From Mesorhizobium ciceri biovar biserrulae WSM1271 (GTDB lineage: Bacteria; Pseudomonadota; Alphaproteobacteria; Rhizobiales; Rhizobiaceae): a stretch of DNA of 64,000 nucleotides. Below the pieces are notes generated by a model. It ran no database searches, was not told the origin of the DNA, and was given only the letters and a program-made list of their open reading frames with translations. Positions 30,609 to 64,000 of this stretch are shown here, one piece after another. The stretch's first letter is position 1. Each line of letters opens with the position of its first letter. The position numbers and the translations under genes were made by a program. The DNA lies in assembly GCF_000185905.1 (NCBI RefSeq), contig NC_014923.1, positions 4,983,501 to 5,047,500 on the forward strand, read 5' to 3'.

Positions 30609-32042
30609 TCACTGAAGGCTCCGCAATCGCACCACCGCCTTCAATCCGCCCATACCGGACCGTTCGAGCGCCAGAACGCCTCCATACTCGTTGACGAGGT
30701 CTGCGACAATGGCCAGGCCCAGACCTGTTCCGGGCTTTGTCTCGTCCAGACGCCGTCCGCGCTTCAGCGCCTCGCGCGCCTTGTCCTCGGGAATGCCCGG
30801 ACCGTCATCCTCTATGCCGATCTCGAACAGGCCGGCCGGGTCGTCCTTGCCGGTCAAGGGCACGATCGAGACCTGCACCGCGCTCTTTGCCCATTTCATC
30901 GCGTTTTCAAGGAGATTGCCCAGCAGTTCCTCAAGGTCCTCGCGCTCGCCGGCGAAGACGATCTCGCCCGCCGGCAGCGACAGCGACAGATTTGTCTGCG
31001 GATTGAGCTTCCGCAGAACCCGCACCATGCGCTGCACCAGCGGCGTCACCGGCGTGCGGTAGACGACGCTGTCGCGTTGTGCCGCGACGCGGGCGCGCTG
31101 GAGATAGTGTTCGACCTGCTTCTGCATGGAAGCCGCCTGTTCGGCGATCAACTGCCCCTTGGCGCCGCCGAGCGCGCGGCCCTCGTTGAGCAGTACCGCC
31201 AGCGGCGTCTTCAGCGAATGGGCGAGATTGCCGACCTGTGTTCGCGACCGCTCGACGATGCGCCTGTTGTTTTCGATCAGCGCATTGGTTTCGTTGGCAA
31301 GCGGTTCGATCTCGGCCGGGAAGCGGCCGTCGAGCCTCTGGGCGGTGCCTTCGCGCACCATGGCGAGCGCGTTCCTGACCCGGCGCAGCGGCTGCAGGCC
31401 GAGCAGGATTGCGATCGCGTTGATGGCGATCATGCCGACGCCGAACAGGCTGAGATAGGTCAGCAGGCGGCGCTGAAAGGTGGCGATTTCCTGTTCGAGT
31501 TCGCTCTGGTTGCCCATGACGCGGAAACGCGCGGCGCGGTTCTTGGCGTCGAGGACGAATTCGCTCTCGAACACTTCGAGTTGCTCGCCGTCGATGCCTT
31601 CGGCTGCGTAGCTGCGCTGGAAGCTCGCGTTGAACGGCACCTCGGCAACGCTCGGTGACGGGATCGTCGTGGTCATCGACGACGAATGGAGATCGCCATG
31701 CACGCCTTCCGAAGCGGGCTCAACCGACCAGTACCAGCCCGAATTCGGCTCCGAGAACCGGAGGTCGCCGAGATCTGGCGCGCCGGTCAGCGCACCGCTG
31801 TCGGAGATGCCGATCGAACCGATCAGGTTGAACAGATGCGCCGAAAGCAGGCTGTCGAAGCCGCGCTCGCTGGCTTGGCGGTATAGGGTGGTGATCAAGG
31901 TGAAGATGACAACGAGCGTCACGATCGCCCAGACCGTGGAAAAGGCGATGACGCGGAACGTCAGCGAACGCGGCCACAAACGCAGCGAAAGCGGCGTCCT
32001 TGCGGTTGGTTTGAGCGGTTCCGAGTTACGCCTCCGGCTCAC
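30609..32042 (-). CDS. feuQ: Sensor histidine kinase FeuQ
   Basis: FeuQ is the membrane sensor of the FeuPQ system, which in Sinorhizobium controls export of periplasmic cyclic glucans (ndvA) and is needed for symbiosis and osmotic adaptation. The 477-aa protein has two transmembrane helices (IAFSTVWAIVTLVVIFTLI and LSLFGVGMIAINAIAILLGL) around a periplasmic domain of about 140 residues. A HAMP-like linker follows, then the H-box LAHSLKTPLAVLLNEG and a HATPase domain (NLLENAMKWA, DDGPGIP, GTGLGLAIV). It overlaps feuP by 17 bases. The PhoQ-like architecture and partner support the name. Confidence 0.88.
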   Translation of the reverse strand: MSRRRNSEPLKPTARTPLSLRLWPRSLTFRVIAFSTVWAIVTLVVIFTLITTLYRQASERGFDSLLSAHLFNLIGSIGISDSGALTGAPDLGDLRFSEPNSGWYWSVEPASEGVHGDLHSSSMTTTIPSPSVAEVPFNASFQRSYAAEGIDGEQLEVFESEFVLDAKNRAARFRVMGNQSELEQEIATFQRRLLTYLSLFGVGMIAINAIAILLGLQPLRRVRNALAMVREGTAQRLDGRFPAEIEPLANETNALIENNRRIVERSRTQVGNLAHSLKTPLAVLLNEGRALGGAKGQLIAEQAASMQKQVEHYLQRARVAAQRDSVVYRTPVTPLVQRMVRVLRKLNPQTNLSLSLPAGEIVFAGEREDLEELLGNLLENAMKWAKSAVQVSIVPLTGKDDPAGLFEIGIEDDGPGIPEDKAREALKRGRRLDETKPGTGLGLAIVADLVNEYGGVLALERSGMGGLKAVVRLRSLQ

Positions 32043-32691
32043 GCATGCGGTAGCCCATGCCGCGCACGGTTTCGATCATGTCGATGCCCATCTTCTTGCG
32101 CAGCCGCCCGACAAACACCTCGATGGTGTTGGAATCGCGGTCGAAATCCTGATCGTAGAGATGCTCGACCAGTTCGGTCCGCGAGACGACCTCGCCCATA
32201 TGGTGCATCAGATAGGCAAGCAGGCGGAATTCGTGCGACGTCAGCTTCAGCGGCACGCCGCCGACATCGGCCTTGGAGGCCTTGGTGTCGAGGCGCAGCG
32301 GTCCGCAGGTCAGCTCGGACGAGGCATGGCCGGCAGCGCGCCGGATCAGAGCCCGTAGCCTCGCCAGCACCTCCTCGATGTGGAACGGCTTGGTGACGTA
32401 GTCGTCGGCGCCGGCATCGATGCCGGAAACCTTGTCGCTCCAGCGGTCGCGCGCCGTCAGGATCAGCACCGGCATCTTGCGGCCGCCGCGTCGCCAGCGC
32501 TCGACCACGCTGATGCCGTCCATCTGCGGCAGGCCGATATCGAGCACGACCGCGTCATAGGGCTCGGTGTCGCCGAGGAAATGGCCTTCCTCGCCGTCGA
32601 AGGCGCGGTCGACGACATAGCCGGCATCGACCAGCGCATCCGATATCTGCCGATTGAGATCCTTGTCATCTTCGACGACCAGTACACGCAT
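32026..32691 (-). CDS. feuP: Response regulator FeuP
   Basis: The 221-aa OmpR-type regulator starts MRVLVVEDDKDLNRQ, has phospho-acceptor Asp51 (VVLDIGLPQMDG), the Lys of DDYVTKPFH, and a winged-helix C-terminal domain (LTSHEFRLLAYLMHHMGEVV ... IEVFVGRLRKKMG). It closely resembles rhizobial FeuP as I know it and overlaps its kinase gene feuQ. In Sinorhizobium, FeuP activates ndvA. A directly repeated 18-bp element lies 20-55 bases upstream of the ATG and may be a regulatory site. Confidence 0.92.
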   Translation of the reverse strand: MRVLVVEDDKDLNRQISDALVDAGYVVDRAFDGEEGHFLGDTEPYDAVVLDIGLPQMDGISVVERWRRGGRKMPVLILTARDRWSDKVSGIDAGADDYVTKPFHIEEVLARLRALIRRAAGHASSELTCGPLRLDTKASKADVGGVPLKLTSHEFRLLAYLMHHMGEVVSRTELVEHLYDQDFDRDSNTIEVFVGRLRKKMGIDMIETVRGMGYRMREPEA

Positions 32692-32710: not shown

Positions 32711-32746
32711 GAAGAGCTTTGTCGGATGGAAGAGCTTTGTAGGATT
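32711..32746. repeat. Tandem 18-bp direct repeat upstream of feuP
   Basis: GAAGAGCTTTGTCGGATG (32711-32728) is followed directly by GAAGAGCTTTGTAGGATT (32729-32746), 16 of 18 bases alike. It lies 20 bases from the feuP start codon, between feuP and the candidate feuN. It could be a binding site for FeuP itself or a recent slippage duplication. Confidence 0.6.
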
Positions 32747-32810
32747 GAAAACTGGGGCAGATATAGGCCGATTCCGGCGGCCTGGGAAACGTAGCCTAAG
32801 ATTGATTGGA

Positions 32811-53352: not shown

Positions 53353-53416
53353 CCATTCAAGATACTTCTCCATTCGAGATGGCCCTTCAAGATACTGGCC
53401 CATTGAAGATACTGGC
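53353..53416. repeat. Four imperfect 14-17 bp tandem repeats upstream of the S9 peptidase
   Basis: Units run CCATTCAAGATACTTCT (53353-53369), CCATTCGAGATGGC (53370-53383), CCTTCAAGATACTGGC (53384-53399) and CCATTGAAGATACTGGC (53400-53416). They end 13 bases before the chosen start codon and contain an alternative in-frame ATG (53379). Confidence 0.7.
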
Positions 53417-61725: not shown

Positions 61726-63273
61726 TCACCGCCCGCGCGACAAGCTCCCCAGAATGCCGCGCACGATTGCCCGACCGACCGAGGAGCCGACCGAGCGCAC
61801 CACCGACTTGATCGCCGCCTCTGCGACCGTCTGGCGGTTGGACGGGCGCGGTGCAGATGTGCGCCTGCCACCGGATTGCGGCGCGGGATCGTCATTGCCG
61901 AAGCCCGGAATGGTCCAGCGCGAGCCGCCGCTGCCGGCCTGCTGGGCCTGCTCTTCGGCATCCTGCGCGTCCTTGGCCTTTTTCTGCAGCATTTCGAAAG
62001 CCGATTCGCGATCGACGGCCTGATCGTACTGGCCGGCGACCGGGCTTTCCTGGATCAGCTTTTGCCGCTCAGCGGCCGTTATGGGCCCAAGCCGCGAGGA
62101 TGGCGGGCGGATCAGTGTCCGCTGCACCATGGACGGAACACCCTTGGCTTCCAACGTCGAGACCAGCGCCTCGCCAGTGGCAAGCTGTGTAATGGCGGTC
62201 ATGCAGTCGAAATCGGGATTTGGCCGGAACGTTTCGGCCGCCGTCCGGACTGCCTGCTGCTCGCGCGGTGTATAGGCGCGCAGCGCGTGCTGGACGCGAT
62301 TGCCGAGCTGGGCCAGGACTTTTTCAGGGATATCCAAAGGGTTCTGGGTGACGAAATAGACGCCGACGCCTTTCGAGCGGATCAGTCGGACGACCTGTTC
62401 GACGCGATCGATGAGCACCTTGGGTGCTTCGTCGAACAGAAGATGGGCCTCGTCGAAGAAGAACACCAGCTTCGGCTTGTCGGGGTCGCCGACTTCCGGC
62501 AGCACCTCGAACAGCTCCGACATCAGCCATAGCAGGAAGGTCGCGTAGAGCCGCGGATTCATCATCAGCTTGTCGGCGGCAAGCACGCTGATGGCGCCGC
62601 GTCCGTCGCGGGTGGTGCGCATGATATCGGCGATACGCAGTGCCGGTTCGCCGAAGAAGTTTGCGGCCCCCTGCTGTTCGAGGACCAGCAGCGTGCGCTG
62701 GATAGCCCCGACCGATGGCTTCGTCACGTTGCCATAGCGCGAGCCGATCTCGTCGGCGCGCTCGGCGATGTTGGCGAGCAGCGCCTGCAGATCCTTCATG
62801 TCGAGCAGCAGCAAGCCTTCCTCGTCCGCCAGGCGGAAGGCGATGTTCATGATGCCTTCCTGCGCCTCGGTCAGGTTCATCAGGCGCGACAGCAACAACG
62901 GCCCCATTTCCGAGACCGTGGCGCGGATCGGATGACCCTGCTCGCCGAACAAGTCCCAGAAGATAACGGGAAATTCCTGGAAGTCATACGGATCGAGCTT
63001 GACCTGTTCGGCCCGCTTGACGAGGAAATCCTGTGCCGTGCCCATCATCGCGATGCCCGACAGATCACCCTTGATGTCCGCGCAGAACACCGGCACGCCG
63101 GCGTTGGAAAATCCTTCGGCCAGGATCTGCAAGGTGACGGTCTTGCCGGTGCCGGTGGCGCCGGTCACCAGGCCGTGACGATTCCCATATCGCAGCAACA
63201 ACTGCTCGGCACGCTGATAGCTGTCGTCGGGCTTTCGGCTGGCGCCGATGAAAATACTGGTCTCGTCAGCCAT
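61726..63273 (-). CDS. HerA-like ATPase, DUF853 family
   Basis: The 515-aa cytoplasmic ATPase has Walker [13 protein letters not shown] (residues about 36-47), [13 protein letters not shown], Walker [13 protein letters not shown] and the arginine-finger-type [20 protein letters not shown]. This is the HerA/FtsK-like DUF853 (E. coli YjgR) family. These form ring-shaped ATPases whose DNA or protein target is not established. A Gly/Arg/Gln-rich C-terminal linker ends in a basic helix. ATG 63273 follows purine-rich sequence; the divergent region contains a striking tandem repeat. Confidence 0.92.
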
Positions 63274-63353
63274 ATGTCCGGTCTCCGCAAACTGATGTGT
63301 CTAAAGCCAGTGGCCTTGCCGCAGGTATAGTGAGGCCATTGCACAGCGACAAT

Positions 63354-63429
63354 GCCATTCGTCCAAATCGGGGCCATTCGTCCAAATCCGGGCCATTCGC
63401 CCAAATCGGCCCCATTCGTTCAGATCGGG
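63354..63429. repeat. Four perfect-period 19-bp tandem repeats
   Basis: Units start at 63354, 63373, 63392 and 63411, each about GCCATTCGTCCAAATCGGG with one to four changes. A decayed fifth unit (63335-63353) keeps the phase and the first six bases. They fill the centre of the 329-base divergent region (63274-63602) between the HerA-like gene and mutA. No other feature is seen in this gap apart from the mutA ribosome binding site. Confidence 0.88.
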
Positions 63430-63602
63430 TTTTTGGAGCTTGCGGATTTTGCCGCTGTTTGGCAATCGTCGTCCACGCGGACTGACCTATATCTGATGGA
63501 TCGAATCCGGTCTCTGAAAGCGCATTGCATTGCGATATCGGACCGGGGACCGTAGACTGAACCGCTCCCGGCTGGTGCGGCCGCATGAAACGAGGAGGAC
63601 GG

Positions 63603-64000
63603 ATGGGCGCCGGAGCCTTGATCCAGGACGTGGAACCCGAGAACGCCGAGCGTCAGCGATGGCTCGCCTTGGCGGAAAAGGCATTGGCAGGCGCTTCCTT
63701 CGAGGAAAAGCTGGTCTCGCACAGCGATGACAACATCCGTATCGAACCGCTCTACGACCGCAGCACCGCGGCGGAACCGATCGTGCGTACAAACCCGAAA
63801 TCGCCATGGATCGTCAGCCAGCGCATCGACGATCCGGACATCGACCGTGCCAGAAGCCAAGCGCTGGAGGATGTTGCACAGGGTGCCACGGGATTGTCGC
63901 TGGTCTTCGAAGGGGCGCCCAACGCGTTCGGCTACGGCTTGCCGAGAACGGCGGAGGCGCTGGAGGCGGTGCTGGACGGCATACCGCTCAACCGCATCCA
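63603..64000 (+). CDS. mutA: Methylmalonyl-CoA mutase small (beta) subunit, 3' end missing
   Basis: The first 132 codons are present and run off the window. The protein starts MGAGALIQDVEPENAERQRW and has L-A-E-K-A-L-A-G-A-S-F-E-E-K-L-V-S-H-S-D-D, I-E-P-L-Y-D-R and P-W-I-V-S-Q-R-I-D-D-P. These match the N-terminus of the small, B12-less subunit of heterodimeric methylmalonyl-CoA mutase. The enzyme interconverts methylmalonyl-CoA and succinyl-CoA in propionate metabolism; the catalytic large subunit (mutB) is expected just downstream. A strong GAGGAGG site lies 4 bases before the ATG. Confidence 0.85.
   Translation, partial: MGAGALIQDVEPENAERQRWLALAEKALAGASFEEKLVSHSDDNIRIEPLYDRSTAAEPIVRTNPKSPWIVSQRIDDPDIDRARSQALEDVAQGATGLSLVFEGAPNAFGYGLPRTAEALEAVLDGIPLNRI

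Follow-up and report, generated by a model that had tools for sequence, protein, structure and literature searches.

Tandem repeats that change in copy number have already been described in promoters. In Mycobacterium tuberculosis, promoter tandem repeats (PTR/VNTR) are located upstream of dop, lpdA, and cysG, and changes in them have been ascribed to strand slippage and recombination (PMC12817950). Tandem repeats are also present in the promoter regions of nadA in Neisseria meningitidis, as a TAAA repeat, and of the bidirectionally transcribed pair hifA/hifB in Haemophilus influenzae (PMC3899988). Satellite families of prokaryotes have been reported as well, including one from Mesorhizobium ciceri based on (AGGGGAGT)2 (PMC6749651).

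The array considered here lies between the divergent genes for a HerA-like ATPase and methylmalonyl-CoA mutase (mutA), in a window of 64 kb (the whole stretch analyzed, G000:C1:4983501-5047500) from a genome of 6.69 Mb (G000), and it reveals no new kind of system. Like the M. tuberculosis repeats, it is formed by tandem units upstream of a gene with a copy number that changes repeatedly on the tree; those repeats vary also within clonal populations whereas the variation of the herA-mutA array was seen between species, and they are described as promoter elements, with evidence in the case of lpdA that expression is affected, whereas the core promoters predicted here lie outside the array (PMC12817950). 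With hifA/hifB it shares the location in a divergent promoter region; however, the unit of nadA measures 4 bp in contrast with 17-20 bp as a rule at herA-mutA, and the hifA/hifB repeat changes the -10/-35 spacing whereas our array is placed upstream of both predicted -35 elements (PMC3899988). The array and the reported satellites coincide in having at least four tandem units of 10-200 nt and in the genus, but the M. ciceri satellite is octamer-based whereas the 19-bp herA-mutA unit, GCCATTCGTCCAAATCGGG, bears no relation to AGGGGAGT and makes up a single array genome-wide (PMC6749651). Among the literature matches listed, no paper on this locus was recognized by its title or the start of its abstract, which does not exclude that one exists.

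Structure of the herA-mutA spacer

From left to right, the region comprises the herA-like gene, its predicted promoter, the four units, TTTTTGGAGC, and a conserved 29-bp box, followed by a second variable spacer, the predicted mutA promoter, and mutA. Features are given below with their positions in the window.

61726..63273, minus strand: gene of a HerA-like ATPase, 515 aa (open reading frame; PF05872 HerA_C, E = 1.8e-250)
63324..63352, minus strand: predicted herA core promoter, with -35 TTGTCG (complement 63347-63352), 17-bp spacer, and -10 TATACC (complement 63324-63329)
63335..63353, no strand assigned: segment initially taken for a decayed fifth unit, corresponding to the predicted herA -35 plus 12 bp of its 17-bp spacer
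63354..63429, no strand assigned: tandem array of four 19-bp units with consensus GCCATTCGTCCAAATCGGG, by TRF and repeat-family search; its copy number varies in relatives
63411..63439, no strand assigned: mutA-proximal unit plus TTTTTGGAGC, mildly conserved; place of the lone copy in one-unit species
63440..63468, no strand assigned: conserved 29-bp box TTGCGGATTTTGCCGCTGTTTGGCAATCG (columns at ≥95%), fixed right-hand border of the array
63530..63558, plus strand: predicted mutA core promoter, with -35 TTGCGA (63530-63535), 17-bp spacer, and -10 TAGACT (63553-63558)
63603..64000, plus strand: 5' part of the methylmalonyl-CoA mutase gene, mutA (PF01642; NCBIfam)

The four 19-bp units reported between the divergent genes in the initial annotation were recovered by TRF at 63354-63429 (period 19, 4.0 copies, 84% matches, no indels, score 110), with unit starts at 63354, 63373, 63392, and 63411. 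The array consists, as a VNTR or minisatellite does, of head-to-tail copies of a unit within the range of about 10-100 bp, and its score was the highest of the eight TRF rows in the window. Over 800 kb of the same chromosome sampled as background (40 × 20 kb), arrays of period 13-22 reached a score of 80 twice and never 100; in a single Markov-1 random sequence of equal size (864 kb), arrays scored ≥50 twice and never ≥60. The fifth unit proposed at 63335-63353, which matched the unit at 8 of 19 positions (our own count), had to be discarded. It corresponds to predicted herA promoter sequence, -35 and part of the spacer, and also precedes the unit in species with a single copy; the array proper therefore starts at 63354.

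Direct repeats of 17-22 bp are typical of plasmid iterons, a resemblance that would favor an iteron cluster; the same class of explanations includes a dispersed repeat family or a chance pattern. The two flanking genes, however, are not replication genes, a single copy is present in 38 of 124 genomes, and the random sequence contained no array scoring ≥60. An Rfam search gave no match at E up to 1, which also argues against an RNA element. When the unit was searched in the same genome with ≤2 mismatches, 15 matches were obtained (three with the reversed control); four fell within the array and 11 elsewhere, scattered, and no second array appeared; a dispersed repeat was rejected on this basis. 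We give next to no credence to any explanation of this class.

The genome under study is from a root-nodule bacterium of the genus Mesorhizobium, to which most of the best 80 named relatives of the HerA-like protein also belong, and the herA N-terminus was present in 145 of 146 genomes of the genus. In G005, the HerA-like protein was matched by two segments that overlap and are read in different frames (G005:C1:195673-197180), which points to a frameshift or a misassembly. As regards mutA, the ATG at 63603 was kept in many relatives and the one at 63585 was not. Its best NCBIfam model was TIGR00642 (small subunit), with a match below the full-length cut-off because the query was cut, only 390 aa being given.

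Both core promoters were inferred from conservation. The distance from the herA TATA to the -35 was 23 in 124 of the 126 genomes with landmarks, in conserved columns, and in 111 of 124 genomes the two elements of the predicted mutA promoter were spaced at 23 bp, start to start. A generic sigma-70 and terminator scan of the region retrieved nothing, including neither of the two predicted promoters. The array adjoins the putative herA -35 (63347-63352), and both predicted core promoters remain outside it, with -35/-10 spacers constant at 17 bp.

This arrangement bears on the suggestion that the array is a phase-variation device, in which gain or loss of units would turn herA or mutA ON or OFF through promoter spacing or reading frame. 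Very close relatives do differ in copy number, in agreement with such a switch. On the other hand, the spacing within both predicted -35/-10 pairs is constant, and the ORFs overlapping the array were not called as genes by our codon-usage script, so that no called gene overlaps the array. Phase-variable genes are typically surface genes, unlike a metabolic enzyme or a HerA-like ATPase. Because both predicted pairs lie outside the array, the switch finds no support and we regard it as very improbable; the array is most likely an unstable, mostly neutral spacer rather than a genetic switch.

The 29-bp box, TTGCGGATTTTGC...TGTTTGGCAATCG, displayed strong conservation over most of the genus, starting with TTGCGGA in 118 of 124 genomes, which had been selected for its TTGGCAAT end. 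It was weighed as a candidate site of the propionyl-CoA regulator PccR (ScfR/PccR box). ScfR sites commonly consist of two near-identical boxes (PMC10370305); in the genome under study the box occurred once with ≤3 mismatches, no second copy being found at this threshold, and a shorter box pattern gave one further 3-mismatch match, on contig 2 (one with the reversed control). The distance from the box to the mutA -10 also differed between genomes. In G002 (L032), a 65-bp element containing ACCGGTTCCC was tandemly duplicated in this second variable spacer, between the box and mutA (TRF period 65, 2.1 copies).

Variation of the spacer across Mesorhizobium

The upstream DNA of all 145 genomes with a herA N-terminus was examined by script, the genome sets containing one genome per species. 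Both borders were located by pattern in 124 of these congeners, making the spacer measurable. Among the other 21, 15 presented no TTGCGGA-like box and apparently lack the whole segment of unit plus box, and six (G064, G070, G099, G105, G139, and G145) had variant borders; an array was still present in G064 (5.8 copies of 20 bp).

The length from the herA -35 to the box was distributed in discrete classes over the 124 genomes: 27-32 bp (n = 38), 43-47 bp (n = 33), 61-68 bp (n = 27), 81-86 bp (n = 12), 96-105 bp (n = 5), 119-120 bp (n = 2), and 138 bp (n = 1), with six genomes in between. The ladder has a step of around 18-19 bp and corresponds to 1-7 unit-equivalents, which after rounding were represented from one to seven by 38, 36, 29, 13, 5, 2, and 1 genomes, respectively; since these numbers are rounded spacer lengths, other indels are counted as units (for instance in G023, G041, and G108); in G023, part of the box segment was duplicated, accounting for the extra length.

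For the 124 genomes, a maximum-likelihood tree was built from 478 columns of the flanks, leaving the array out, with 62 of 121 inner branches starred. Regarding rate and INDEPENDENCE, the unit classes needed at least 35 changes on this tree, the least possible number being six; as the tree is unrooted, it does not distinguish in each case the duplication of a single copy from a loss out of several. The proposal of a variable-number locus was thus borne out between species by the ladder of 1-7 unit-equivalents together with this number of changes.

Copy number also differed between close relatives with conserved flanks. Among genome pairs with flank identity ≥97%, 10 of 28 differed by ≥10 bp in array length, and so did 22 of 91 pairs at ≥95%. 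In comparison with the genome under study (86 bp, four units), G110 and G047 (98.6% flank identity) presented 67 bp and three units, G109 (97.5%) 65 bp and three units, and G014 (97.5%) 104 bp and five units; the nearest relatives, with flanks at 97.5-98.6%, therefore contained 3, 3, 3, and 5 units vs. 4. A length of 85 bp was found in G087 (95.9%), and G073, G113, and G094 (93-94%) presented a single unit.

A starred clade of 14 single-unit rows (27-31 bp) displayed no unit gain, as expected if slippage needs a second copy. In a clade of 24 rows, 23 had two unit-equivalents although the copies had diverged, which could reflect a constraint on length or merely the loss of slippage. A doubling was found in G153, placed beside the single-unit genomes G054 and G084.

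Origin and possible function of the repeat copies

The periods found by TRF at the herA-mutA spacer across the genus included 13, 14, 16, 17, 18, 19, and 20 bp. The match within arrays averaged 88%, as compared to 73% between the consensus units of different genomes (33 arrays), a contrast that is biased upward because TRF picks arrays with alike copies. Copies are, on these figures, alike within a genome and different between genomes, unit and period being particular to each lineage.

These changes bear on another function suggested for the array, that of a multi-site operator of fixed geometry, to which a protein would bind cooperatively on one face of the helix, repressing or activating both genes. 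The exact 19-bp period in the genome under study and the location between two divergent genes would fit an operator. However, 19 bp does not correspond to an integral number of turns of the helix, and the lengths of the 124 spacers showed no phase concentration at 10.5 bp (R 0.108 for all, 0.22 for distinct lengths); periods (13-20 bp) and unit sequences differ between relatives rather than displaying a conserved unit with helical spacing across species, and the unit has no second array in the genome. Given that period and unit change between lineages, that phasing is absent, and that 38 of 124 genomes have one unit, an operator of fixed geometry was not supported, and we hold it to be highly unlikely.

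We consider it probable that the array is a promoter-spacer minisatellite (VNTR) derived from one ancestral segment, with extra copies that are mostly neutral. An ancestral segment of around 18-19 bp (roughly GCCAATCGTCGAAATCGG) would have stood between the herA -35 and the 29-bp box and would have been duplicated head-to-tail in several Mesorhizobium lineages. Whole units would later have been gained and lost, replication slippage or unequal exchange among the copies being the presumed mechanism. The array would alter just how far apart the two divergent core promoters, themselves intact, are located. The extra copies may be mostly neutral, since both predicted core promoters stay intact, and the mutA-proximal copy would retain a weakly constrained core.

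The mean modal frequency of the mutA-proximal 30 bp was 0.657 and that of the herA-proximal 30 bp was 0.635, as compared to 0.592 and 0.523 in two spacer controls treated alike and 0.761 in the herA 5' leader. The terminal unit being somewhat above the spacer controls, not everything in the array need be neutral. Among the units of long arrays, 33 of 50 terminal ones contained the core AAAT[CT]GG vs. 27 of 133 internal ones, and only 17 of 38 single units did. From these sequence comparisons, we read the array as a single site under weak constraint accompanied by extra copies that vary more freely, with modest evidence for the constraint.

The same data are relevant for a possible copy-number rheostat, in which each unit would hold a site (with a core near TCGAAATCGG) recognized by a regulator, or contacted by RNA polymerase upstream of the herA -35, so that transcription of herA and/or mutA would be graded by the number of units. 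The array adjoining the predicted herA -35 and the higher conservation of the terminal unit than of the spacer controls are consistent with this possibility, as is the precedent of the M. tuberculosis promoter repeats, which are reported to vary in number, with evidence that lpdA expression is affected (PMC12817950). Against it, the core is less frequent in internal than in terminal units, units and periods vary freely between lineages, 38 of 124 genomes have one unit, fewer than half of these having the strict core, and the excess of conservation is small. A rheostat therefore seems rather unlikely to us. We are similarly doubtful of the broader form of this proposal, that the herA-mutA spacer is a hotspot for repeated amplification of a constrained single site, its unit number being, genus-wide, a rheostat by which evolution tunes one or both of the divergent promoters. 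If a rheostat did operate, the locus would provide a copy-number-tuned promoter array outside pathogens, in soil symbionts, with a series of 1-7 units made by evolution.

The spacer offers a natural series from one to around seven units, with many changes on the tree and constant flanking promoters, in which neutrality can be asked against tuning of expression. It may also serve as a species- or strain-typing marker in Mesorhizobium.

Other intergenic arrays

Two further arrays of the window had been considered in the initial annotation, together with the herA-mutA array, as hinting at a general duplication tendency. An 18-bp array (32711-32749) is located just upstream of a response-regulator gene (32026-32691, minus strand) initially named feuP, for which family searches indicated an OmpR-type response regulator only. 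A 17-bp array (53353-53416) ends 13 bp before the gene of an S9 peptidase (53430), in which the S9 domain was found. All three arrays of the window are at gene starts.

Copy number varied at these two loci too. On the feuP side, around one copy was found in G109, two in G000 and G047, and 5.4 in G014; the S9 peptidase array had from one to about five copies among relatives. In comparisons of the best 30 of 60 and 61 matching genomes, respectively, a TRF array was present at seven of 30 loci for the feuP-side gene and six of 30 for the S9 peptidase.

Intergenic arrays were present in each of five relatives over the 64 kb in synteny with the window. These regions contained, according to the gene calls, 13 array places between genes, seven of them away from the three named loci; of these seven, one was between two gene ends and one (near 32000) was probably inside a gene. 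Within the sample of the genome under study plus the window, 17 of 35 arrays with score ≥60 were intergenic vs. 5.2 expected, and a weaker excess was obtained for period 13-22 and score ≥50 (10 of 44 vs. 6.5 expected); the gene calls in these location tests came from our own codon-usage script, not from a standard annotator, and the sample was small. A local excess was also apparent, with three intergenic arrays (period 13-22, score ≥60) in the 64-kb window vs. three in 800 kb, although it was noticed post hoc.

A preference for gene starts was not shown by the scan of tandem repeats relative to start codons in the sampled genome. Outside the window, six of eight intergenic arrays of period 13-22 were ≤250 bp upstream of a start (59% for random intergenic positions) and three of eight were nearer a start than a stop (58% for random positions). 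Against the same random values, the corresponding figures were 11 and six of 17 for period 8-30, and eight and four of 15 for a third cut of size and score. The suggested tendency was thus upheld as regards the variation of the feuP-side and S9 arrays and the intergenic enrichment, but not as regards gene starts. Since the enrichment is intergenic and starts were not shown to be preferred, the tendency concerns the intergenic DNA of the genus. A strong example that recurs is provided by the herA-mutA spacer, which illustrates how short tandem duplications reshape intergenic DNA in Mesorhizobium.

Arrays with an 8-bp unit were also observed elsewhere in the genome under study, namely CCTACTCC repeated 8 times (L284, 17650-17713) and AGGGGAAT repeated 17.6 times (L273, 12344-12484). 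The latter unit is one base off AGGGGAGT, the octamer of the M. ciceri satellite family (PMC6749651).
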